Below, in pieces: positions 60-56,735 of a DNA stretch of 64,000 bases. Within the stretch, counting starts at the first letter, position 1. Every line of letters starts with the position of its first letter. The notes beneath the pieces are model-generated. The model was given only the letters and a program-made list of their open reading frames with translations, did no database searches and was not told where the DNA came from. Both the position numbers and the translations under genes were made by a program. The DNA is from Lepidostoma basale (Eukaryota > Arthropoda > Insecta > Trichoptera > Lepidostomatidae): positions 248,001 to 312,000 of the forward strand of contig JAHDVF020000501.1 in the NCBI GenBank assembly GCA_022606425.2, read 5' to 3'.

Positions 60-260
60 AACTTATTAAAAGCTAAGGCGTTAACATCGTGGAATTCCAT
101 AGTAATACACTTAGGGAATTGAAAATATTTTTGTTTATAATGCACAAAATAATAATAAAACACGACTTGTTTCCGAAGATACCTCCACCTTCAGGTGTAA
201 ATATATAATAAAAACTAAATAAAGAAAGACTAATATAAAAAACGCATTTAAAATTCGATA
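60..260 (-). repeat. P8 hammerhead-bearing repeat, partial
   Basis: Same family as 46560-47060 and 12575-12880. Shared marks are the block around ggaattcca with aaggcgttaac, the line gaattgaaaat, and the ribozyme-like segment at 159-198. The bases around it are A-rich. One arm only is recognisable. Confidence 0.6.
159..198 (-). ncRNA. Hammerhead ribozyme candidate (P8 type)
   Basis: Read on the minus strand: helix I strand ACAC (198-195), CTGAAGG (194-188; the last A of CUGANGA is G), one T, a hairpin GGAGG-TAT-CTTCG, GAAAC (173-169), AA, GTC (166-164), then GTG/T that pairs with ACAC. The sister copy at 46918-46955 has the better hairpin GGGG-TAT-CCTCC. Core decay suggests it is inactive or weak. 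Confidence 0.55.
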
Positions 261-4925: not shown

Positions 4926-5215
4926 AAAATATAATAAGGCTTATTTATTATTTCTTGAACAATAATGTAAAACTCCATATAAAATTATTAATATGTATGA
5001 AAAACGATACTTTTCAAGGAGTTTTAGTATAGTATTTATGTATGACATGTTTCGCCCTTTTAAGGCATTATCAAATGTCTTAGAAGGGCGAAAGAAAGAA
5101 CATTTGACAATGCCTTAGAAGGGCGAAACATGTCATATATAAATACTATAATAAAACTCCTTTAAAACTAACGTTTTTCATATAATATGTTAATAATAAT
5201 AAGGCTTATTAAAAA
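4925..5215. repeat. P3 fold-back element
   Basis: Near-perfect inverted repeat: gtatgacatgtttcgccctt on the left mirrors agggcgaaacatgtcatat on the right, with outer arms ending in aataaggctta. Degenerate hammerhead cores lie on both strands: TTGATAA-T-GCC..GGGC-GAAAC-AT-GTC at 5044-5074 (minus) and TTGACAA-T-GCC..GGGC-GAAAC-AT-GTC at 5104-5134 (plus). The C and G of CUGANGA are changed, so activity is doubtful. Confidence 0.75.
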
Positions 5216-7080: not shown

Positions 7081-7120
7081 TTTTCATTTTCACTTAGTAT
7101 TAACCAATTTATTTTAGTAT

Positions 7121-7167
7121 ATAGCGCCAACCGGTTTCACTCTATAGCGAGCCTCCTCAGGGCTATA
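7121..7167 (-). ncRNA. Hammerhead ribozyme candidate (PQ type)
   Basis: Minus strand: upstream TATAGCC, CTGAGGA (7160-7154), one G, helix II GCTC-GCTATA-GAGT, GAAAC (7138-7134), CG, GTT (7131-7129), then GGCGCTATA. Helix I pairs CC with GG and TATAG with CTATA around a two-base bulge. Cleavage triplet would be GUU, an allowed NUH. All core residues match CUGANGA and GAAA. Confidence 0.65.
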
Positions 7168-7192
7168 CATAAACACACAAATTCAGTTTCGG

Positions 7193-7235
7193 TATAGCAC
7201 TGAGGAAGCTCGCTATAGAATGAAACCGGTTGGCA
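7193..7235 (+). ncRNA. Hammerhead-like core (PQ type), second arm
   Basis: CTGAGGA starts at 7200, then A, GCTC-GCTATA-GAAT, GAAAC (7222-7226), CG, GTT. Helix II and helix I carry mismatches relative to the other arm, so this copy is probably decayed. Confidence 0.5.
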
Positions 7236-7262
7236 CTACTTACTCAAATAAACTAAGTGAAT

Positions 7263-7620
7263 TTTATTATTTCTTGAACAATGGTGTAAAACTTCATATC
7301 AAATAATTAATAAGAAAGAAAACGTATATTTCCTAGTAGTTTAATTATAATTTCTGGGAGTGACATATTTCGCCTGTCTATGGCATTATCAAAAGAAAAC
7401 GTATATTTCCTAGTAGTTTAATTATAATTTCTGAGAGTGACATATTTCGCCTGTCTGTGGCATTATCAAATACATAATCAAACGTCAAAAGACATTGAAT
7501 AATGTCTTAGACAAAATGACATTTGATAATGCTTTTGACAGGCCAAACACGTCGTTCCCATAAATTATTATATAATAAAACTTCTAGAAAACAGACGTTT
7601 TCATTCGTTTTAATATTCAA
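7263..7620. repeat. P3 fold-back with internal duplication
   Basis: Left arm segment gaaaacgtatatttcctagt with tgacatatttcgcctgtct occurs twice (7317-7390 and 7397-7470), then the opposite arm follows (catttgataatgctttt, caggccaaacacgtc). Cores carry GAAAT or CAAAC instead of GAAAC. Confidence 0.7.
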
Positions 7621-9314: not shown

Positions 9315-9560
9315 AATAAAACCTTTTGTTTTGTATACAACAGGCCGTTTGAACCCAGTTACCGTATACAATTTATTTAAGCTATTATATTGATTATTAC
9401 AACATGTGATAGGTAGTAAATCTATCGCCATTTTATTGCCACGTTCATCCTACACCAGACCAAAGACAGTGTAACAATCACACTGCCATCGCCGGGAATC
9501 GAATCCGGGATCTTCGGTATGGAAATCAGAGCTCTTAGCACTGTGCCACGAAGGTCGACA
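9315..9560 (-). mobile_element. SINE-1, tail type II
   Basis: Minus orientation: tRNA-like head with A box and B box gattcgattcccggcgat (one change in the conserved B box), body, then tail type II (tgtatacggtaactgggttc, cctgttgtatacaa). Transcribed by RNA polymerase III when active. Confidence 0.8.
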
Positions 9561-11774: not shown

Positions 11775-12002
11775 CTTGTATACAACAGGTCATTAGAACC
11801 CAATTACTGTATACAATTTATTTTAGTTATTATATTGATTTTCATAACATGTGATAGGTAGCCAATCTATCGCCATTTTGTGTCACGTGAATTCTACACC
11901 AGACCAAAGACAGTGTGACAATCACACTACCATCGCCGGGAATCGAACCCGGGACCTTCGGTATGGAAGACAGAGCTCTTACCACTCTGCCACGAAGGTC
12001 GG
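11775..12002 (-). mobile_element. SINE-1, tail type II, full head
   Basis: Minus orientation: A box TGGCAGAGTGG at about 11990-11980, B box GGTTCGATTCC at about 11952-11942 (ccgggaatcgaacccgg on plus), body with cagtgtgacaatcacac, and tail type II (tgtatacagtaattgggttc). Both boxes match the tRNA promoter consensus exactly. Confidence 0.85.
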
Positions 12003-12214: not shown

Positions 12215-12360
12215 TGTATTTTCACAACACTTTATTTTACTTTTCGGAGACATATATCGTTTGTGAAATAACCTTTTTCATTATAATTTGTGCATCGAAA
12301 AAGGTTGTGTCACAACCGAAACATGCTCGCTAAAAATGAAATATAGTGTCGAATTTTTTG
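12215..12360. repeat. Fold-back repeat with degenerate hammerhead-like core
   Basis: At about 12290-12335 the plus strand has GGTTG-TGTCA-CAACC followed by GAAAC-AT-GCT. The CUGANGA part is lost (tcgaaaaa). Left arm is a weak complement. Confidence 0.45.
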
Positions 12361-12398
12361 AGAATTAAAACACTGTTTTTTCCACTTTTGAGTTTATT

Positions 12399-12443
12399 TT
12401 TCTCGACATGTTTCGAATGTTTACACCTTCATCATCGGGAGAA
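12399..12443 (-). ncRNA. Hammerhead ribozyme candidate (P1, left arm)
   Basis: Minus strand: helix I TTCTC (12443-12439), CCGATGA (U4 is C), T, helix II GAAGG-TGTAAA-CATTC with one mismatch, GAAAC, AT, GTC, GAGAA closing helix I. Confidence 0.6.
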
Positions 12444-12483
12444 CGATATAAAACGATATTAACGATATAAACTGTTTATATCG

Positions 12484-12527
12484 TTCTCCCGATGATGAAG
12501 GTGTAAGCCTTCGAAATATGTCGAGAA
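12484..12527 (+). ncRNA. Hammerhead ribozyme candidate (P1, right arm)
   Basis: TTCTC (12484-12488), CCGATGA (12489-12495), T, GAAGG-TGTAAG-CCTTC, GAAA, TAT, GTC (12520-12522), GAGAA. Helices I and II pair fully; the C-G pair of helix III is lost (T in place of C). Confidence 0.6.
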
Positions 12528-12575
12528 AAACAAACTCAAATGTAGAAAAATCATTGTTTTAATTCATAAAAAAAC

Positions 12576-15564: not shown

Positions 15565-16105
15565 ATACCTGTTAAATTTTAGATGGCAGTGCACAATGGT
15601 GTTCTTGTGCCGACCCTTATGTATGGAAGTGAAGCATGGAACTGGCAAAAGAAGGATGAAAGTAGAATAAATGCAGTAGAAATGAGATCTCTCAGACGAA
15701 TGTGTGGCAAATCTGTATTTGATAGAGTGACAAATGCAAGTATAAGAAGTGAATGTGGTGCGAATGAAAGTGTTATGAACAAAATAAGGAAAGGGTCATT
15801 AAGATGGTTTGGACACATGGAAAGAATGAGTGAAGACAGAATGGTAAAGAAGGTATATGTAAACGGCGTGAACGGAGCTAGAAATAGAGGAAGGCCGAGG
15901 AAAACGTGGCACGATCAAATCAATCAAATATTGAATGTCGGACACGTGAGGAGTCGGAGAAATCGACGTGCGTGCATGACAAGATGTATGAATGTGGAGG
16001 AAGCGAGAGAAGTATGTCAAGACAGAACAGTGTGGCGTTCCATTCTTTCTGCCTACCCCTCCGGGGAGACGGCGTGATGGTTAGTTAGTTAGTTAGTTAG
16101 TTAAA
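15565..16105 (+). pseudogene. LINE-A RT C-terminus with complete (TTAG)n 3' end
   Basis: A 164-codon open frame starting at 15583 encodes MAVHNGVLVPTLMYGSEAWN, WQKKDESRINAVEMRSLRRM, GSLRWFGHMERMSEDRMVKK, RNRGRPRKTWHDQINQIL, RRACMTRCMNVEEAREVCQD and SILSAYPSGETA, then TGA and a (TTAG)n tail at 16080-16103. It is the carboxyl end of a non-LTR polyprotein, after the fingers/palm region. 5' truncation and an intact frame make it a useful reference for the family's true C-terminus. Confidence 0.9.
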
Positions 16106-16325: not shown

Positions 16326-17646
16326 CGAGGTCTGTTCAAAAAGTATCGCGAATTTTATATTTTTTCAAAAAGTATTTATTTATTCATGAATATCTATTTT
16401 GTCCCCTTCAAAGTAATTCCCCTCGGATATAATACATTTATGCCAACGTTTTTTCCAATCCTCGAAGCACTTAAAAAAATCATTTTTTGTGATCTTGTTC
16501 AGCTCCTCCTTCGATGCCGTCTTTATCTCCTCAATCGTGGCGTAGCGTCGTCCTTTCATGGGCCTCTTCAGTTTTGGAAACAGGAAAAAGTCACAGGGGG
16601 CCAGGTCTGGGGAATACGGTGGCTGCGGCACCATTACTGTGTTGTTTTTGGCCAAATATTCGCGCACAAGCAACGATGTGTGAGCAGGGGCGTTATCATG
16701 GTGCAAAAGCCAGTTTTTGTTCTTCCACAAATCCGGGCGTTTCTGGCGGATTGCTTCGCGCAAATTGCGCATAACTTGCAGGTAATATTCCTTATTGACC
16801 GTACTACCCTGTGGCAAGAACTCATGATGCACCACGCCCCTGCAATCGAAGAAAACTGTGAGCAAAACCTTCACGTTCGACCGAACTTGGCGCGCTTTTT
16901 TGGTCTTGGCTCATGCGGCAGCTTCCATTGGGATGATTGAGCTTTGGTTTCCACGTCATAACCATAAACCCATGATTCGTCACCAGTTATGACCCTCTGG
17001 AGCACATTTGGGTCGTCACGGACCGAGTCCAACATCTCCAGAGCAATGTTAACGCGATGCTGTTTTTGGTCGAAATTGAGCAATTATGGCACGAATTTCG
17101 CGGCGACCCGACTCATGCCCAAATCATTGGTTAAAATCGAATGGCACGAGCCAATCGATATGTTTAGGTCCTCAGCAACTTCTCTAACGGTGATTCGACG
17201 ATTGGCTAATACTATTTTCTTCACTTTATCAATGTTTTCGTCTGTTGTTGACGTGCTCGGGCGTCCGGCACGCTCTTCGTCGTTCATATCTTCTCGGCCC
17301 TCTGAGAACATTTTGTACCACCGATAAACGTTGCTTTGGTCCAAGGTAGCTTCACCATATGCCACAGTCAACATTCGAAATGTGTCCGCGCACTTTATTT
17401 TGTTTTTCACACAAAATTTGATACAGATTCTTTGATCCATTTTTTGGAATAGGCAAAAATCGAAGACGAGCCAAAACACATCCAAGCAAAACAGCTGTCA
17501 AAAATTAACTAAACATTCAAAATGGCCGACCTTGTCAGCATAAGTAAGGGACATGAGTACCAACATAACGCTACAAAAAAATCAAAAATCAAATATACGT
17601 AGCCAGCGGAAATTCAAAATTCGCGATACTTTTTGAACAGACCTCG
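16326..17646 (-). mobile_element. mariner-family transposon, nearly intact
   Basis: 1321 bp, flanked by TA at 16324-16325 and 17647-17648. Terminal inverted repeats are identical over 31 bp, from cgaggtctgttcaaaaagta at the left and its complement ending acctcg at 17646. Size, TA target and a single minus-strand transposase gene fit the mariner group of Tc1/mariner. Only two lesions are visible in the gene. Perfect terminal repeats imply recent activity. Confidence 0.95.
16380..17440 (-). pseudogene. mariner transposase, one stop and one frameshift
   Basis: Cut-and-paste DNA transposase of the D,D34D class. Start chosen at the ATG at 17440 (MDQRICIKFCVKNKIKCADT), giving about 353 codons, normal for mariner. 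N-terminal helix-turn-helix region, then the GRPSTS linker (about residue 70). Catalytic aspartates: ITGDESW (about D154), HHDNAPAH (about D249) and LAPCD (about D284), with exactly 34 residues between the last two. Lesions: TAA at codon 119 (17084-17086) and a one-base deletion in an A run (plus-strand T run 16896-16901, six where seven keep frame). All three catalytic residues survive. No function in the host is implied. Confidence 0.93.
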
Positions 17647-17648
17647 TA

Positions 17649-17870
17649 CACATAAAGATTCGAAAAATCACGAAAATTTGACGTTTGATATATTATTGTA
17701 ACACCTGATGATGTCAACATTGGTTGATGAAACAGTTGTCGCGTAAAACAATTTTGATACAAAAAACAAAGTTTATTCATTAACAGTTTAAAATGTTAGA
17801 GTATCATAGTGTTTGGCCAAACAATGGACTATTTAACATGAGATACTTTAAATTCAATATGAACTGTAAT
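17649..17870 (+). repeat. P6 fold-back repeat, right half
   Basis: Starts at the centre of the P6 palindrome (taaagattcgaaaaatcacg) and runs through the ribozyme core to acaaagtttattcattaaca, as in 48990-49140. The left half is absent; the mariner lies at that point. Confidence 0.75.
17701..17744 (+). ncRNA. Hammerhead ribozyme candidate (P6)
   Basis: ACAC, CTGATGA (17705-17711), T, helix II GTCAAC-ATTG-GTTGAT, GAAAC (17729-17733), AGTT, GTC (17738-17740), GCGT. Core is canonical CUGAUGA, GAAA, GUC. Helix I has one A-C mismatch, and the helix III loop AGCT is changed to AGTT. Confidence 0.65.
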
Positions 17871-19260: not shown

Positions 19261-19584
19261 AACATCATAACTTTACGTACCATATTTATTATAATATGTC
19301 ACCGCAAAATCCTTGTAAACACCTGTTATAAGGACGTACATAAAATAATAAATATATAAATTGAATGTTTTAATTATTGCAATATTATAAGTTATTATAA
19401 TATGTAATATCTAACTAACTAACTAACTAGTTAGATATTACATATTATAATAACTTCTAATATTGTAATAATTAAAACATTCAATTTATATATTTATTAT
19501 TTTATGTACGTCCTTATAACAGGTGTTTACAAGGATTTTGCGGTGACGAATTATAATAAATATGGTACGTAAAGTTATGATGTT
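19261..19584. repeat. Long near-perfect palindrome with (CTAA)n centre
   Basis: Arms of about 155 bp: aacatcataactttacgtac at the left end is matched by gtacgtaaagttatgatgtt at the right end, and ccttgtaaacacctgttata by its complement. The centre at about 19415-19435 is a short ctaa repeat. Few mismatches are visible, so a transcript would form a very long hairpin. Confidence 0.9.
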
Positions 19585-20479: not shown

Positions 20480-20602
20480 ATTTAGTTTAAATGCACTAAT
20501 GTGTGTGTCTTCGACCGGTTTCGGCAGCTCGCTACCATCGTCTGGTGATGCCAAACAAGTAGATGGCATCGAGCTACCGAAAACGGTCTAAGACACATAC
20601 AT
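20480..20602. repeat. PR fold-back element
   Basis: gcactaatgtgtgtgtcttc at the left is mirrored by taagacacatacattagcgg at the right; inner arms carry accggttt and aaaacggt. A single arm recurs at 42260-42350. Confidence 0.7.
20509..20545 (-). ncRNA. Hammerhead-like core (PR)
   Basis: Minus strand: CAGACGA (20544-20538; U4 is A), T, helix II GGTAGC-GA-GCTGCC (six pairs, one G-U), GAAAC (20522-20518), CG, GTC (20515-20513). Helix III loop gives the palindrome ACCGGT. Helix I is weak. Confidence 0.5.
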
Positions 20603-21057: not shown

Positions 21058-21320
21058 TAGTGACGACCTTCGTGGCCGAGTGGTAAGTGCATTGACTGCC
21101 ACCCCGAAGGTTCCGGGTTCGATTCCCGGCGAGGGCAATGTGATTGTCACACTGTCTTTGGTCTGGTGTAGAATTCACATGACAATAAAATGGTGATAGA
21201 TTAGCTACCTATCACGTGTCACAAAAATCACTATGATAGCTTTAAATACCATTTATATCGATTTGGCTCATGCTGTCATGATGTAAAGAGCGATTTAGCA
21301 AAATAATAATAATAATAATA
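21058..21320 (+). mobile_element. SINE-1, tail type I, full length
   Basis: tRNA-like head: A box variant TGGCCGAGTGG (about 21072), B box GGTTCGATTCC (about 21116). Body cacactgtctttggtctggt and gtagaattcacatgac, then tail type I (atttggctcatgctgtcatg, gagcgatttagc) ending in (AAT)n. Anticodon-loop sequence differs from the copy at 56567, where it resembles tRNA-Gly (TCC). Confidence 0.85.
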
Positions 21321-26078: not shown

Positions 26079-26440
26079 CTAGAGCACCATACCCCGAGTC
26101 ATTGTATGCTGCGCCAAGACATTTGTCCTGCTATGCGGTATGCACAACAGATCGTGTCTTCTAGCGCGAGCATACCTGTCCGGTGCATTGAGGCCATAAC
26201 ACTCTAAGAGGTATGGGCTATCAATGAGGTTACGGAGTATTTTAAATCCTAAGATCATCAATGTACCTTGTCTTCTTGATTCGAGACTGCGGTACTCTGT
26301 GTTAATCAATAGATCATTGTGGTGCATAAACCTCGGATATACCCCATTCATCCGCATGTAGAGGTATCTCAGAATTTTTTTCTGGATTTGTTCTAATACC
26401 TCCACATACTTCTGGTCTGACTGGTCTGGTACACAGACTA
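26079..26440 (-). mobile_element. LINE-F coding fragment
   Basis: Minus strand, 108 open codons: VLEQIQKKILRYLYMRMNGVY, RSLESRRQGTLMILGFKILRN, LLECYGLNAPDRYARARRHD. It is a C-terminal region of a jockey/CR1-like polyprotein. A short matching piece is at 61917-61975. Confidence 0.75.
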
Positions 26441-26479
26441 GTCTGTCGATGCCAGCGAGCCTGGCGAAACCGGTTGCTG
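26439..26479 (+). ncRNA. Hammerhead ribozyme candidate (P7)
   Basis: CTGTCGA (26443-26449; A6 is T), T, helix II GCCAG-CGAGC-CTGGC (five perfect pairs), GAAAC (26466-26470), CG, GTT (26473-26475), GCTGTC. Confidence 0.5.
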
Positions 26480-26560
26480 TCTAAATAAAGACAAAAGTGG
26501 AAGTAGTTAAAAAACATCGTTTTATTTAATTATTATTTAAAATGAACTTCCATCAAGAGA

Positions 26561-27215
26561 TTTCAGTAAAACAATTAGAAGAATTATGCTGTTGATAATT
26601 GTGTAACACATAATAACATATTATTTTACATTTCATTCTAATAAATGCACTGATTGTATCTTCAACGCTTAAACTGATATTGTTAGACCAGGTAGTTCAC
26701 ATTACGCAGGTGATAAAGTGTCTCTATTAAAAAGACTTAAACATTAGCCCAGGTGCTCGAATGCCGTAATAACTATTGTAAGAACAATCCATAAAATATA
26801 ACGACCACGTAATTCTGTAACACTTCATAATACGTACTGTCTCATTAATTTTCCACAAGGAAAGGCATCGCCCGAATCATCACCTTCAGTGCACGCGGCC
26901 ACGTATGGAGCAGTTTCGCTTATGGGCGAATATGTTCGCCTCGCTTATGGGCGAATATGTTCGCCTCGCGCTCTGAATTATAGTGAGCCAACACATCAGC
27001 GAGAACGTCGCGAGGGGAGGTTAAATTTTATGATTATTACCCCGTTTAACGCAAAATAACGTGTGATATAAGCTGGATTCTCGCGATCTCTGTGTGGGCT
27101 CTGTTGAATAGGTAATTTTTATAACACAATAGAAGCATAATAAGTAATAGTTAATTGTGTATAATTAAACAAGACACATCAAAATATAATTTAAATTTAT
27201 ATATTTTTAATATTA
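26561..27215. other. Single-copy stretch with island 26860-27065
   Basis: The island holds gtgcacgcggccacgtatgg and a 25-bp tandem duplication (26917-26966). The remainder is AT-rich with no features. Confidence 0.4.
26917..26966. repeat. 25-bp tandem duplication with hairpin
   Basis: Two identical 25-bp units, each containing GGCGAA-TATG-TTCGCC, a perfect 6-bp hairpin. Unit 1 is 26917-26941, unit 2 is 26942-26966. Confidence 0.9.
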
Positions 27216-27819: not shown

Positions 27820-28020
27820 ATTTTATGAATTAAAACGCTGTTTTTCCTCATTTGAGTTTATTTTTCTCGATATGTGTCGAAGACTTACATCTTCACCATC
27901 GAGAGAGAACGATATAACGATATAATGTTCTCCCGATGATGAAGGTGTAAACCTTCGAAACGTGTCGAGAAAAATAATCTCAAAAGTCTAAAAAACAGTG
28001 TTTTAATTCATAAAAATTTA
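27820..28020. repeat. P1 fold-back element
   Basis: Left arm ttgagtttatttttctcgat mirrors the right arm with cgagaaaaataatctcaaaa. The left ribozyme is decayed (GACAC for GAAAC); the right one is intact. Confidence 0.8.
27928..27971 (+). ncRNA. Hammerhead ribozyme candidate (P1), best of family
   Basis: Helix I TTCTC (27928-27932) with GAGAA (27967-27971), all five pairs. CCGATGA (27933-27939), T, helix II GAAGG-TGTAAA-CCTTC (five pairs), GAAAC (27957-27961), GT, GTC (27964-27966). Only U4 (C here) departs from the CUGANGA consensus. Confidence 0.7.
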
Positions 28021-28250: not shown

Positions 28251-28275
28251 CGATCGAAACAGTAATATAATAATT

Positions 28276-28528
28276 CGCACGTTGAAAACAAAAGTGACAC
28301 TATACAAAAATCTCAATTTTTCAGTACGGTCATTTAAAGTTTTTGTGAGGTCAATAACCTGACTGTGAGTAGAAATATATCTAATGTTGTTGTTTTATAT
28401 ATTAGTTTAGATATTATTCTATCAGAATCTAGTTGATTTTAATTAGGTTAATAAGCAGGCAAAACTTTAAATGACCGTACTGAAAAATTGAGATTTTTGT
28501 ATAGTGTCACTTTTGTTTTCAACGTGCG
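28276..28528. repeat. Palindrome with about 65-bp arms
   Basis: cgcacgttgaaaacaaaagt at the left and acttttgttttcaacgtgcg at the right are exact complements; the match continues through ttcagtacggtcatttaaag. A 100-bp spacer lies between. No hammerhead core. Confidence 0.85.
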
Positions 28529-28734
28529 ATATGATCTCAAATGAAAAAAAAATGGAAAATTCGAATTATTTCAAATAAGGAAGTTCCCATATATTATAAC
28601 AGCAGTAACACGTCAAAATATCCACGAATTTATCGATTCAATCAGATAAACTCATGGGTTGAGGTATACTCGTACGTGTATTGAAAACGTTTTTAAGCAG
28701 TATCTACCTGTGTATGTATATAACCCGGAGTTTT

Positions 28735-32552: not shown

Positions 32553-33925
32553 GTAAACTAACTAACTAACTAACCATCACGCCGTCTCCCCGAAGGGGTA
32601 GGCAGAAAGAATGGACTGTCACACCTTTCTTTCCTGACATATTTCTCTCGCTTCGTCAACATTCATACATCGTGTCATGCACGCGCGTCGATTTCTCTGA
32701 CTCCTCACATGGCCGACATTCAATATTTGATTTATTTGATCGTGCCACGTTTTCCTCGGTCTTCCTCTATTTCTGGTACCATTTACATCATTAACATATA
32801 TTTTTTTACCATTCTTTCTTCATTCATTCTTTCCATATGTTCAAACCATCTTAATGATCCATTCATTATTTTGTTCATGACACCATCATTCGCACCACCT
32901 TCACTTCTTATATTTTCATTCGACACTCTATCATACACAGAATATCCGCACATTCGTCTAAGAGATCTCATTTCTACTGCATTTATTCTACTTTCATCCT
33001 TCCTTTGCCAGTTCCCTGCTTCGCTTCCATACATAAGGGTCGGTAGAAGAACACCATTGTGCACTGCCATTCTAGCTTTTTTGGATAGGTTTTTTTTTGC
33101 GATGACAACTTTAAGTGCACCATTCACTTTGTTGCCTGCCCCAACCCTTCTTTCAATATCCCTCTCCACTCTCCCATCTCTTGTAAACATACTACCTAAA
33201 TACACAAACTCAACTATTTGCTCCAAATTTTCACTATTCACGCTAATGTTGCAGACTGTCATGGTTTCTTCCTTTTCAAAAATCATTACCTTGGACTTAT
33301 TAACATTCATCATCAGATCATTTCACATGCATACCTCATACATACAATTTACCAGGATATGTAGTTCATGCTCGTTGTCAGCAAGTAGGACAGCGTCATC
33401 CGCATACAAGAGACAGCTTACTGACACTCCGCTCATTTTGGCACCTACATCCAACCCTTTCAGCTCTTTCATACAATTGTCCATATACAGATTAAATAAC
33501 CACGGGGACATTACGCAACCTTGTTTGACACCTTTATTGATATCAAACCAGGCTGTAAGATCTCCATTTACTCTGACACTAGCAGTGCTTTCCGTGTATA
33601 GCGACTTAATTGCCGTGATCAGTTTTGTACTTATTCCATATTCAGACAATGTTTTCCACAACTTTTCTCTATTAACGTAATCATATGCTTTTTGTAAGTC
33701 GACAAACGTACTTCTCTGTCAATGTACGAAGTCCAAAAATTTGATCCATACATCCTCTGCCATTCATAAAGGCACCTTGCACATCCCAAACTTTGTCACT
33801 CGTCAATTTTCTTACTCTTTCTATTAAAATTCTGCCATAGACTTTACCAACGACACTCAAAAGACTAATAGCTCTGTGGTTTCCACATTCCATACGCGAT
33901 CCTTTTCCGTCATCATATAGCTAGG
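32553..33925 (-). mobile_element. LINE-A, longest copy (about 1.37 kb)
   Basis: (CTAA)n at 32560-32575 marks the 3' end (minus orientation), followed by the conserved 3' block, the C-terminal region, and the reverse transcriptase. 5' truncated inside the RT domain; endonuclease not present. Confidence 0.92.
32600..33893 (-). pseudogene. LINE-A reverse transcriptase, broken
   Basis: RNA-dependent DNA polymerase for target-primed reverse transcription. Blocks from the N-terminal side: NHRAISLLSVVGKVYGRILI (33885-33825), QGAFMNGRGCMDQIFGLR, then a frameshift near 33665-33690; SLYTESTASVRVNGDLTAW, KGVKQGCVMSPWLFNLYMD, and catalytic LLYADDAVLLA (about 33415-33380); an in-frame TGA at 33323-33325; NVNKSKVMIF, FVYLGSMFTRDGRVERDIER, KARMAVHNGVLLPTLMYGSE, then a frameshift near 32785 and the RRACMTRCMNV end. 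The YADD aspartates are intact. RTE-like clade is tentative. Confidence 0.9.
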
Positions 33926-36060: not shown

Positions 36061-36464
36061 CATAACAACAATTTTTGAAAATCTGAAGATCATATTCATA
36101 ATTAAGGGTACACTCTTAACCTATTGGAACAATTAGAAATTAATAAGCATAACAAAAAACCCTAATTTAACTTTAATCAATGAACATACTAACTTCATCC
36201 CCACGCCTTAATGTAGTTCCGATATATAATTAGATTCAAAGAACTCTTGATTCTGCACTGTATTTATTTCACATTTCAGATGCAGAAGAGAAGAATACAT
36301 CAATTGAATCTACGCACACAGGATGGCGATTTCATTTTATATACGAGTATAATACTTAGATAATCAAATGATTTTACTGAAATCTCTTGATGGAAGTTCA
36401 TTTTAAATAATAATTAAATAAAACGATGTTTTTTAACTACTTCCACTTTTGTCTTTATTTAGAC

Positions 36465-36504
36465 AGCGACCGGTTTTGCCAGACTCGCTGGCATCGACAG
36501 ACTG
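36465..36504 (-). ncRNA. Hammerhead-like core (P7, left arm), G12 lost
   Basis: Minus: CTGTCGA, T, GCCAG-CGAGT-CTGGC, then AAAAC in place of GAAAC, CG, GTC. Loss of the conserved G should abolish cleavage. Confidence 0.5.
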
Positions 36505-36531
36505 GTCTACTGAGACTGGTCTACGACAGAC

Positions 36532-36572
36532 CAGTCTGTCGATGCCAGCGAGTCTGGCGAAACCGGTCGCTG
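36532..36572 (+). ncRNA. Hammerhead ribozyme candidate (P7, right arm)
   Basis: Helix I CAGT (36532-36535) with GCTG (36569-36572). CTGTCGA (36536-36542; A6 is T), T, GCCAG-CGAGT-CTGGC (five pairs), GAAAC (36559-36563), CG, GTC (36566-36568). ACCGGT at helix III is palindromic. Confidence 0.55.
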
Positions 36573-36645
36573 TCTAAATAAAGACAAAAGTGGAAGTAGT
36601 TAAAAAACATCGTTTTATTTAATTATTATTTATAATACTTAGAAT

Positions 36646-45005: not shown

Positions 45006-45127
45006 ACTGTTACCTAATATAGGATTAAAATAGTCCATTGTGTTGGCCGAAACACTATGATACCTTAACATTTTAAAACTGTTAAATTAAATAACTTTGT
45101 TTTTGTATCACAATTGTATTTTATTTT

Positions 45128-45171
45128 ACGCGACAGCTGTTTCATCAACCTATGTTGACACCATCAGGTGT
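45128..45171 (-). ncRNA. Hammerhead ribozyme candidate (P6, left arm)
   Basis: Minus: ACAC, CTGATGG (A9 is G), T, GTCAAC-ATAG-GTTGAT, GAAAC (45143-45139), AGCT, GTC (45134-45132), GCGT. Confidence 0.6.
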
Positions 45172-45189
45172 TACAATAATATTATTATA

Positions 45190-45233
45190 ACACCTGATGA
45201 TGTTAACATAGGTTGATGAAACAGCTGTCGTGT
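45190..45233 (+). ncRNA. Hammerhead ribozyme candidate (P6), canonical core
   Basis: Helix I ACAC (45190-45193) with GTGT (45230-45233), four pairs. CTGATGA (45194-45200) is the exact consensus. One extra T (45201). Helix II GTTAAC-ATAG-GTTGAT, six pairs with two G-U. GAAA (45218-45221). Helix III C-AGCT-G, where ACAGCTGT is a perfect palindrome, suited to dimer formation. Cleavage triplet GTC (45227-45229). One of the two best copies in the window. Confidence 0.8.
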
Positions 45234-45289
45234 AAAGTTAAATACAATTGTGATACAAAAACCAAGTTATTTAATTTAACAGTATTGCA

Positions 45290-45430
45290 TCTTCGTCTCT
45301 ATTGAGATACAATTAATCCTTGTAAAATAAAAATAATTTATCCACAATGGGTGAAATCCAGTATTTGTCTACAAGAATTTGTATACATTCAAAATGTTGT
45401 TTAAAATATTTACGAAATCCCTTATAACCA
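45290..45430. repeat. P5 arm
   Basis: cttcgtctctattgagatac and cagtatttgtctacaagaat match the P5 outer arms at 43040-43180 in reverse. Confidence 0.65.
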
Positions 45431-46530: not shown

Positions 46531-46660
46531 AAAATCTATTTAAAATTAGAATTGTAAAGATTATCTTAATAGCTTTTCTCAAATTTAAAACAAAATACAA
46601 ATCTTAGGAAATTGAAAAACATAGTTTAATCCACTATTTAATAAATAAAAAATTAAGGAA

Positions 46661-46696
46661 ACACGGCATGTTTCGGTGTAAAACATCTTCAGGTGT
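46661..46696 (-). ncRNA. Hammerhead-like core (P8, left)
   Basis: Minus: ACAC, CTGAAGA (exact CUGANGA), T, a weak hairpin GTTTTACACC, GAAAC, AT, GCC (GTC lost), GTGT pairing with ACAC. Cleavage triplet is destroyed. Confidence 0.5.
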
Positions 46697-46917
46697 AAAA
46701 ATATAATGAATTAAAATACTATAATAAAAATAATAAAATATGTTTCCACATGAAGATTAATAAAATATTGGAAGATTAATATTAAAGATTAATAAAATAT
46801 TTTTACACCATGGGATTACACCATTATTATTATTACACCATTAAAGATTGGATATTATTATTACACCATTAAAGATTGGATTACACCATTAAAGATTAAT
46901 AAAATATTTTTACACCA

Positions 46918-46955
46918 TTTTTACAAGATGGGGTATCCTCCGAAACATGTCATGT
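46918..46955 (+). ncRNA. Hammerhead-like core (P8, right)
   Basis: ACAAGA for CUGAAGA, T, GGGG-TAT-CCTCC hairpin, GAAAC (46942-46946), AT, GTC, ATG. Helix II is good, core 5' part is lost. Confidence 0.5.
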
Positions 46956-47129
46956 TTTTTTTAAATATTTTTCATTAAATAGTGGATTAAACAAAGTTTT
47001 TCAATTTCCTAAGTTTATATTATGGAATTCCACGGTGCCTTAGGGTTCAATAAGTTAAATACAAATCAATTGTTTTTTTTAATAATCTAAAACTCCATAA
47101 ACGTTAAGTTTATTACGACAACGTCTAAG

Positions 47130-48840: not shown

Positions 48841-48899
48841 TATAGATATAACTGTTAATGAAAAAACTATTCTTTTTATAACACATTTGTACTTTATTT

Positions 48900-48946
48900 T
48901 ACGACAGCTGTTTCATCAACCAATGTTGACAATATCAGGTATTACA
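48900..48946 (-). ncRNA. Hammerhead-like core (P6), decayed
   Basis: Minus: CTGATAT (G8 and A9 changed), TGTCAAC-ATTG-GTTGAT, GAAAC, AGCT, GTC. Confidence 0.45.
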
Positions 48947-49031
48947 ATAATATATCAAATGTAAATTTTTTTTCGAATCTTTATAAAGATTCGAAAAATC
49001 ACGAAAATTTGACATTTGATATATTATCGTA

Positions 49032-49075
49032 AAACCTGATGATGTCAACATTGGTTTATGAAACAGCTGTCGTAA
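49032..49075 (+). ncRNA. Hammerhead ribozyme candidate (P6)
   Basis: CTGATGA (49036-49042), T, GTCAAC-ATTG-GTTTAT (one mismatch), GAAAC (49060-49064), AGCT, GTC (49069-49071), GTAA. Core is exact; helix I is short (AC with GT). Confidence 0.65.
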
Positions 49076-49194
49076 AATAAAATACAATTGTGATACGAAA
49101 ACAAAGTTTTTTCATTAACAGTTATAAAATATTAAAGTATTATACTGTTTCGGCCAAAACAATGGACTTTATAGATATGATTATTATTTAGTGT

Positions 49195-53340: not shown

Positions 53341-53525
53341 AAATATTAAACGCTGTTTATGATATCACATCACGACAGCTGTTTCGTCAACAGATGTTGA
53401 CATCATCAGGTGTTACAATATTTTTTTTCAACTGTTAAAATTATTTTTCATGATACCATAAACGGGGTTTTATATTTTAACAGTTGATAATGTTGATGTA
53501 TCAAAGTGTTTCGGGCAAAAAAAAT
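53341..53525 (-). repeat. P6 repeat with one intact ribozyme arm
   Basis: Left arm has the ribozyme; the right side keeps only the outer end (ttttaacagttgataatg, agtgtttcgggcaaaa). Confidence 0.75.
53371..53413 (-). ncRNA. Hammerhead ribozyme candidate (P6), perfect helix II
   Basis: Minus: CAC (53412-53410) pairing with GTG (53373-53371), CTGATGA (53409-53403), T, GTCAAC-ATCT-GTTGAC (six Watson-Crick pairs), GAAAC (53385-53381), AGCT, GTC (53376-53374). Every conserved hammerhead residue is present, plus one extra T after CUGAUGA. Confidence 0.8.
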
Positions 53526-54589: not shown

Positions 54590-54900
54590 TTACCACATTG
54601 TAAATTAACCACGGTATTGTAATTATTTTTGACGTTAAACTAGTTTCGCTTGTACTCAAACTTCACCAGGGCAATATTTAAACGAATTTCTTAATGTTAT
54701 AGATATAATATTATAAAACACTTTGTATTGAACCAAGGTATGGTTATAAAAATTGATGCCAATTTGTTTCGCTTGGACCCAAGTTGTTATACTGCACTGA
54801 TTTTGGCTTTAGCTTTGATCCAAGCGAAACAAGTTGGCATAAATTATAATAACCATTCCATGGTTAAATACAAAATGTTTTATGAATTTATAGGTATATA
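54590..54900. repeat. PS fold-back element
   Basis: tattgaaccaaggtatggtt is mirrored by aaccattccatggttaaata; inner arms gatgccaatttgtttcgctt and aagcgaaacaagttggcata. Additional left part 54590-54680 repeats the GAAAC arm. Confidence 0.75.
54635..54675 (-). ncRNA. Hammerhead-like core (PS)
   Basis: Minus: CTGGTGA (54669-54663; A6 is G), A, GTTTG-AGTA-CAAGC (five pairs, one G-U), GAAAC (54647-54643), TA, GTT. Helix I is poor. Confidence 0.45.
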
Positions 54901-54956
54901 TATTACATTTTATAGTTTTATCGTTTTTATAGTTTTATCGTTTTTATAAAGAATTT

Positions 54957-56566: not shown

Positions 56567-56735
56567 GACCTTCGTGGCAGAGTGGTAAGAGCTCTGACTT
56601 CCAAACCGATGGTCCCGGGTTCGATTCCCGGCGATGGCAGAGTGATTGTCACACTGTCTTTGGTCTGGTGTAGAATTTACGTGGCAATAAATTGGCGATA
56701 GATTGGCTACCTGTCACATGTCATGAGAATCAATA
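56567..56735 (+). mobile_element. SINE-1, best tRNA-like head
   Basis: A box TGGCAGAGTGG (56576-56586) and B box GGTTCGATTCC (about 56619-56629) exact. The region between has cttccaa, like a tRNA-Gly (TCC) anticodon loop. Body runs to catgtcatgagaatcaata. It is followed directly by the (CTAA)n of a SINE-H copy. Confidence 0.88.

Follow-up and report, generated by a model that had tools for sequence, protein, structure and literature searches.

Penelope-like elements (PLEs) are relatives of telomerase. The minimal type I hammerheads of these elements were reportedly described by Cervera and de la Pena in 2014 and by Lunse, Weinberg and Breaker in 2017. Excerpts from the published accounts of PLEs (PMC6155905, PMC7761336, PMC6466107, PMC3846280, PMC11167929) describe hammerheads, a minimal helix III and inverted pLTRs, together with a one-sided tail, two internal start sites and the cutting of both strands. 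In Anolis carolinensis, the Poseidon PLE termed PAc combines a reverse transcriptase (RT) and GIY-YIG frame with a hammerhead where the pLTR meets the ORF; a tail of 30-40 bp is delimited by two internal RT start sites, the targets are AT-rich, and the protein cuts and extends both strands (PMC11167929). In the rotifer Adineta vaga, target duplications of 8-10 bp accompany Penelope insertions in the cases given in an excerpt of PMC3846280. In chrysanthemum chlorotic mottle viroid, the plus-strand hammerhead possesses an extra A10 between A9 and G10.1; according to an excerpt of PMC3705267, this position can accommodate an A, a U there is 3-4 times faster, and C and G are very harmful.

Here, a 64,000-nucleotide stretch of DNA from the caddisfly Lepidostoma basale (the window) was analyzed together with the assembly to which it belongs (769 Mb in 1572 contigs), which served for genome scans. 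The original prediction was that nine sites of the window share a hammerhead layout, consisting of CTGANGA, one nucleotide, a hairpin, GAAAC and GTC/GTT, and that these sites lie in several unrelated fold-back families of non-autonomous Penelope-related elements or retrozymes.

Hammerhead fold and the extra base after A9

The layout is present at the nine sites, with exact CTGANGA...GAAA...GTC/GTT in five (17705, 45194 and 49036 on the plus strand, 53374 and 7129 on the minus strand) and with one core substitution in four, namely U4C at 12489 and 27933 and A6U at 36536 on the plus strand and A9G at 164 on the minus strand (Table 1). The core CUGANGA...GAAA...NUH is exact in families A, B and others and is substituted in families C (U4C) and D (A6U). 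A structural descriptor, which allowed at most one mismatch in the core plus GAAA and demanded a helix II and a stem I of at least 3 bp each, a helix III closing pair and NUH, matched the window nine times, the core being exact in three of these; the corresponding means over 20 windows randomised by a Markov-1 model were 0.95 and 0.05. The descriptor missed the listed sites 17705 and 49036, the stems of which are decayed.

Table 1. Positions of hammerheads, hammerhead-like motifs and their fold-backs in the window
Position	Strand	Feature	Evidence	Remarks
45018..45283	.	Family A head-to-head fold-back, two Penelope ends	scored arms (3' limits 149 and 90), inverted repeat I3	tail on left arm, none on right; no clear target duplication
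45194..45229	+	Family A hammerhead, exact core, one extra U after A9	core scan, descriptor	
45132..45167	-	Hammerhead of opposite arm, core CTGATGG (A9G)	core scan	
48850..49167	.	Family A fold-back	core scan, arm scoring	flank word TATAGATAT; hammerhead 49036-49071 (+), exact core, mismatch in helix II
17671..17834	+	Family A single arm	core scan, arm alignment	hammerhead 17705-17740 (+), exact core
53371..53523	.	Family A fold-back, decayed	core scan, descriptor, arm scoring	hammerhead 53374-53409 (-), exact core; left arm aligned only to position 39
36358..36636	.	Family D fold-back, one tail	alignment, flank comparison	flank word TATAATACTTAGA; start of both arms immediately precedes hammerhead
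36536..36568	+	Family D hammerhead, core CTGTCGA (A6U), one extra U	core scan, descriptor	
36468..36500	-	Family D hammerhead, opposite arm	position read from sequence	
26437..26571	+	Family D single arm	core scan, arm alignment	hammerhead 26443-26475 (+), A6U
12354..12573	.	Family C fold-back, inverted repeat	core scan, descriptor, R1	
12489..12522; 12405..12438	+; -	Hammerhead-like, core CCGATGA (U4C)		inside fold-back 12354..12573
27841..27994	.	Family C fold-back	core scan, inverted repeat, descriptor	hammerhead-like 27933-27966 (+), core CCGATGA (U4C)
7108..7252	.	Family B fold-back	inverted repeat, R1	hammerheads 7129-7160 (-) and 7200-7231 (+), exact cores
54610..54905	.	Extra fold-back outside the first list, GCTT-type helix II	inverted repeat I7, R1 matches	
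164..194	-	Family E-like hammerhead remnant, core CTGAAGG (A9G)	core scan, descriptor	
46600..47016	.	Family E fold-back, decayed	core scan, inverted repeat I9	
4996..5182	.	Family F fold-back, core TTGAYAA, paired helix II, GAAAC-ATGTC	inverted repeat I6, by eye	
20513..20544	-	Hammerhead-like remnant, core CAGACGA	core scan	

Genome-wide, the pattern CTGANGA-N15-GAAAC gave 8,133 + 8,057 matches, and its reversed form gave 61 + 59; such motifs, of which so many sequence-distinct families in 64 kb were considered unusual at first, abound throughout the genome (16,190 matches for one loop length against 120 in the reversed control). The nucleotide following CTGANGA is a consistent feature and not noise; helix II pairs only with one extra base. 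The helix II sequence GCT...AGC occurs with one inserted base in 3,492 + 3,413 = 6,905 genome copies and without it in 7 + 8 = 15, the reversed controls being 0 in both cases. Among the 100 matches listed, 78 are distinct, and a helix II of at least 3 bp was formed in 55 of these 78 when one base was skipped and in two when none was, compared with about 5.6 for shuffled interiors. The inserted base is A in 73, T in four and C in one of these 78 copies, is T in 41, A in 12 and G in one of the 54 descriptor matches with one insert, and is A or T in 18 family representatives.

The pairing was also counted in 65 distinct copies, all of which were taken: allowing one inserted base, helix II was paired in 233 of 260 cells, versus 98 when none was allowed, stem I in 191 of 260 cells versus 57-114 when slid, and GT-H was found at the expected position in 49 copies. 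The 47 regions fetched were picked by eye from the 100 matches listed for distinct matched strings and not for pairing. In the 18 family representatives, chosen by eye, covariation reached 0.633, versus 0.177 when shuffled and at most 0.117 when slid; this support covers helices I and II, as helix III consists of 2 bp that are invariant in the set. The loop of helix III is a self-complementary dinucleotide in 39 of the 49 copies with GT (expected proportion, 0.32), which fits the idea, given in an excerpt of PMC7761336, that minimal PLE hammerheads may cleave as dimers. The claim of a hammerhead fold was thus borne out by the covariation of helices I and II and, judged by its sequence, the motif is a real hammerhead fold of the minimal type I in which an additional base, nearly always A or U, separates A9 from helix II.

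A search of the window with the Rfam hammerhead covariance models, proposed as a check along with the original prediction, returned no hammerhead at the gathering threshold or up to an E value of 10, so that the prediction fails by this check; the same models gave none at E<=10 in 20 loci with exact copies and none at gathering in four more. The cause lies in the models, which do not fit the extra-base variant. This silence would favor chance matches of the motif in AT-rich hairpin DNA; the genomic counts (16,190 against 120 and 6,905 against 0 in the reversed controls) and the covariation refute that explanation for the pattern, with no bearing on catalysis, and leave it a negligible probability. 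A covariance model termed R1 was built solely from contigs C1 and C2, with 39 copies as its training rows; these were picked from the 65 copies for pairing and GT, so that covariation in this set leans towards structure. In the window, R1 detected family B at 7121-7168 on the minus strand (E 4e-15) and 7192-7239 on the plus strand (E 8e-13), as well as a pair outside the first list at 54629-54677 on the minus strand (E 1e-4) and 54811-54835 on the plus strand (E 3e-4); family C was matched with an E value of about 0.05 only, family D with 6-8, and family A was not matched by R1 in the window. The microRNA and noncoding RNA models rox1, mir-590 and STnc400 matched several fold-backs because these are hairpins, with scores below gathering, and were rejected. 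Several families are indeed present, as first stated, but they are diverged lineages with one layout and not unrelated. By eye, the fold-back at 7344-7571 belongs to the same family as that at 4996-5182, with the core TTGAYAA, another lineage with a lost core.

The carriers and Penelope-like elements

A profile search of the genome gave at least 62 matches to GIY-YIG (PF01541). Thirty of these loci were fetched, two pairs of loci representing the same insertion, and 17 of the 30 have a family D hammerhead at a distance of 640-730 nt, measured from the 5' limit of the GIY-YIG match, with spacings of about 650-715 nt. One locus (L069) contains an open frame of 758 amino acids with RVT_1 (1.3e-13) and GIY-YIG (4.9e-5), which is of the Penelope type; this frame had no match among PDB sequences. 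The supposed relationship to Penelope is thus supported. Family E follows GIY-YIG in five loci (L042, L052, L053, L055 and L056) and an A-like copy does so in L043. The link to coding PLEs is thus direct for family D and weaker for families E (five loci) and A (one locus), and for families B and C it is suggested by the common layout. The term "non-autonomous" describes the copies, which are mostly short ends, but not the elements concerned, which have autonomous members. L069 and L070, on contigs C236 and C742, show one PLE insertion with one joint and are perhaps haplotigs or a duplication.

The retrozyme half of the original prediction fared differently. Retrozymes are small non-autonomous elements with tandem hammerheads, the RNA of which self-cleaves and circularises before reverse transcription, and an excerpt of PMC7229834 describes small repeats with type I hammerheads as typical of the animal retrozymes. 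However, among the 100 listed matches of the family D 32-mer, all 18 pairs separated by less than 1 kb are, counted by eye, arranged head to head and none in tandem, the elements concerned possess an RT and GIY-YIG frame, helix III is minimal and the family D core is substituted. A retrozyme origin accordingly retains only a very slight probability.

Architecture of the fold-backs

The fold-backs are 5'-truncated Penelope ends that are placed head to head, with varying joints and with target duplications. Family D arms were aligned to one real long copy with 93.6-99.7% identity, and tails were scored with cut-offs of 115 nt for family A and 120 nt for family D. Exactly one arm carries a tail of about 45 nt in 46 of the 50 scored pairs, comprising 12/12 and 16/17 in two family D sets and 18/21 in family A, and no tandem pLTRs were seen among the pairs scored. 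The first family D set consists of 12 head-to-head insertions, including 36358-36636 of the window, and leaves out six GIY-YIG loci with a lone family D arm, L050, L051, L057, L058, L061 and L062; counted from the first base of the core, one arm ends within +93 to +108 and its partner within +141 to +149, and the 5' truncation pairs are all different. For the second set, the 18 near family D pairs were fetched and 17 were scored, as only one arm of L119 was aligned; the tail is exactly one-sided in 16 of them (left in seven, right in nine), the exception being L124. The exceptions in family A are L013 (a split alignment; the other alignment gives 138 and 97), L018 (two tails) and L034 (none), and some scored family A pairs are partial alignments (window 53371; L026 at 164-306). 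Duplicates were counted once (L044/L067, L060/L064, L069/L070, L009 = window, L017/L030 and L018/L028).

A flank word of at least 7 bp is common to both sides in 14 of the 17 near family D pairs versus 39 of 272 mismatched pairs, so that both marks of Penelope, inverted ends with one tail (46/50 pairs) and flank words (14/17), are found. Target duplications of about 9-13 bp are readable by eye in nine of the 12 family D insertions; that of L068 is short, that of L070 lies within a TA repeat, and L059 has no evident target duplication in its flanks read by eye. In the older fold-backs of the window, the flank words are short or doubtful.

These features bear on a second alternative, in which the palindrome itself is the mobile unit of a fold-back DNA transposon or MITE, moved by a transposase, with the hammerhead incidental. 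The palindromic form, the flanking duplications and the many family D copies with common ends and a centre near the hammerhead would suit such an element, but joints and filler vary by copy, the 5' truncation pairs differ in 12/12 family D insertions, the tail is one-sided and the arms run into the PLE frame. A transposase-moved palindrome is contradicted for family D and is, overall, barely credible. At the joints of L118-L135, about 4 to 80 nt of filler is observed, which often resembles scrambled adjoining CAGAC/CTGGT sequence; the filler at family D joints suggests slippage or short template jumps at run-off. In addition, AAATAAAGTGG...TACAAAGT recurs about 25-60 nt 3' of the hammerheads in many families and may belong to the RT start site or to its stem-loop.

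Whole fold-backs are strong hairpins, with minimum free energies of -140.2 kcal/mol (45070-45290) and -194.5 kcal/mol (36358-36640), in which the fold-back's own hammerhead would be sequestered. From these predicted folds, the fold-backs are more likely to be dead products and sources of hairpin RNA than active ribozymes.

5' ends and template cleavage

In family D, exactly 6 nt are kept before the core in 36 of 76 arms (19/36 in near pairs and 17/40 in arms without a near exact partner). All 76 arms contain the intact 32-nt motif, which was the search criterion, and arms without the motif are therefore under-counted. Among the 17 distinct family D sequences that extend further upstream, 11 have a TATA box, TATATAAA, beginning 30 nt above this 6-nt limit, and we read the limit as a probable transcription start. 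The fixed 5' end is firmly claimed for family D only. The 5' limits of family A are diffuse (-8 to -16) and lie within an AT palindrome, and a TATA box 30 nt above the limit was looked for in family A and not seen. Cleaved templates were considered for family A and rejected, since none of 54 arm limits lies exactly at +37; three are at 38, apparently owing to single-base gaps in the alignment, a fourth is at 39, and the two at 40 include a family D locus that is probably spurious.

The 5' ends and the tails together weigh on a third alternative, a snap-back of one cDNA by self-priming or template switch, in which the sharp 5' limit of family D is a structural stop at the hammerhead. Joint palindromes in a rotifer are read as self-priming in an excerpt of PMC3846280, and the family A joints lie within an AT palindrome. 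Self-priming does not, however, predict unlike 3' ends on the two sides, as found in 46 of the 50 scored pairs, and a structural stop is expected 3' of stem I and not 2 nt beyond it and offers no prediction of a TATA box 30 nt upstream. Snap-back is thus an unlikely origin of the pairs, albeit the strongest of the alternatives.

The family D 32-mer occurs in 2,671 + 2,769 (5,440) exact copies, and its reversed pattern in none; core position 6 is U in 99 of the 100 matches listed for this 32-mer and A in one. The natural hammerhead variant A6C has low activity according to an excerpt of PMC3088659. As a substituted-core family has reached 5,440 exact copies, cleavage seems unnecessary for spread, and this apparent dispensability is in line with the Anolis PLE, for which RNA with dead hammerheads inserts equally well in vitro (PMC11167929).

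Possible mechanism of paired integration

Based on these observations, it is quite probable that the fold-backs are PLE insertions of two oppositely oriented, 5'-truncated cDNAs of the pLTR and ORF start, with a hammerhead fold in each complete arm, and that they arise by paired priming on uncleaved RNA. At an AT-rich target, the GIY-YIG endonuclease may cut the two strands with an offset of about 10-13 bp, and the 3' end on each side could then serve as primer for a cDNA begun within the PLE RNA; of the two possible start sites, which lie about 95 and 145 nt 3' of the core's first base, one would be used on each side. The cDNAs would extend 5'-ward, and those that start near the mRNA 5' end would run off at a fixed RNA 5' end; the run-off point could lie just upstream of hammerhead stem I, giving minimal fold-backs. 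The two cDNAs would finally be joined head to head via short filler or microhomology. The hammerhead would have remained uncleaved in the templates of the fold-backs, and lineages with substituted cores could still multiply. Points that weigh against this reading are the four scored pairs that depart from the one-tail rule, the six GIY-YIG loci in which a family D arm has no partner, the diffuse family A limits with no TATA box, the lack of an evident duplication at L059 and the short flank words of several older fold-backs.

A broader generalization is offered only tentatively and may well not hold, namely that PLE integration is paired and asymmetric, with one cDNA and one start site for each strand, that the uncleaved 5' hammerhead acts as a structured leader and not as a nuclease, which would allow a lineage with a substituted core to attain thousands of copies, and that the extra base at position 10 marks a subclass of PLE hammerheads missed by current models.

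Other repeats in the window

By eye, the translation of 16380-16940 on the minus strand is a Mariner-type transposase frame of 164 amino acids. Four tRNA-like matches (11928-11999 and 9484-9555 on the minus strand, the latter below gathering, and 21066-21137 and 56568-56639 on the plus strand) have a common start such as ACCTTCGTGGC and are probably the heads of a tRNA-derived SINE family. The frames at 15583-16077 (plus) and 32783-33313 (minus) are related (MAVHNGVL...SLRRMCG) and resemble, by eye, the final part of the reverse transcriptase of a non-LTR retrotransposon. The inverted repeat at 19261-19584 has 157-nt arms that are 97% complementary; a hammerhead was not seen in it, and it is a different kind of fold-back. 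That at 28275-28529 has 69-nt arms with 100% complementarity and is MITE-like.

Significance and comparison with known systems

The thousands of copies amount to natural experiments, in which the 5' ends of inserted cDNAs tell whether their templates had been cleaved. With its more than 5,000 exact copies, a substituted-core family suggests that spread can do without the consensus core, the extra base provides a simple rule to find hammerheads missed by standard models, and the one-tail rule constrains the integration of PLEs. A search of open-licence full texts gave no title or abstract that dealt with the additional base of PLE hammerheads, with a fixed 5' end or with a strict rule of one tail, and the newness of these three features is unproven.

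Like the minimal type I hammerheads of PLEs, those described here have a minimal helix III and occur in PLE pLTRs in many dispersed copies; compared via reviews, they differ in one extra A/U after A9 and in the paired, inverted arrangement of the copies. The extra base occupies the very place of that in the viroid hammerhead and is mostly A or T here, whereas the viroid motif, as far as the excerpt describes it, is a replication ribozyme, and kinship by descent with the PLE motif is not implied. Type I hammerheads in small repeats are shared with animal retrozymes, the tandem repeats of which lead to circular RNAs in the excerpt of PMC7229834, in contrast to the inverted near pairs of family D.

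With PAc, the elements share the RT and GIY-YIG frame and AT-rich targets and, probably, two start sites bounding a tail and the use of both strands. In vitro, PAc showed no difference between strands in its start site, whereas the genomic pairs nearly always have one of each, and the dead cores of PAc were made artificially, whereas the substituted-core lineages found here are natural. Adineta vaga Penelope resembles them in its head-to-head inverted pLTRs, one-sided tail and joint palindromes (excerpt of PMC3846280); few copies are described in that excerpt, whereas thousands are present in L. basale, mostly as just two ends and, in family D, with a fixed 5' end.
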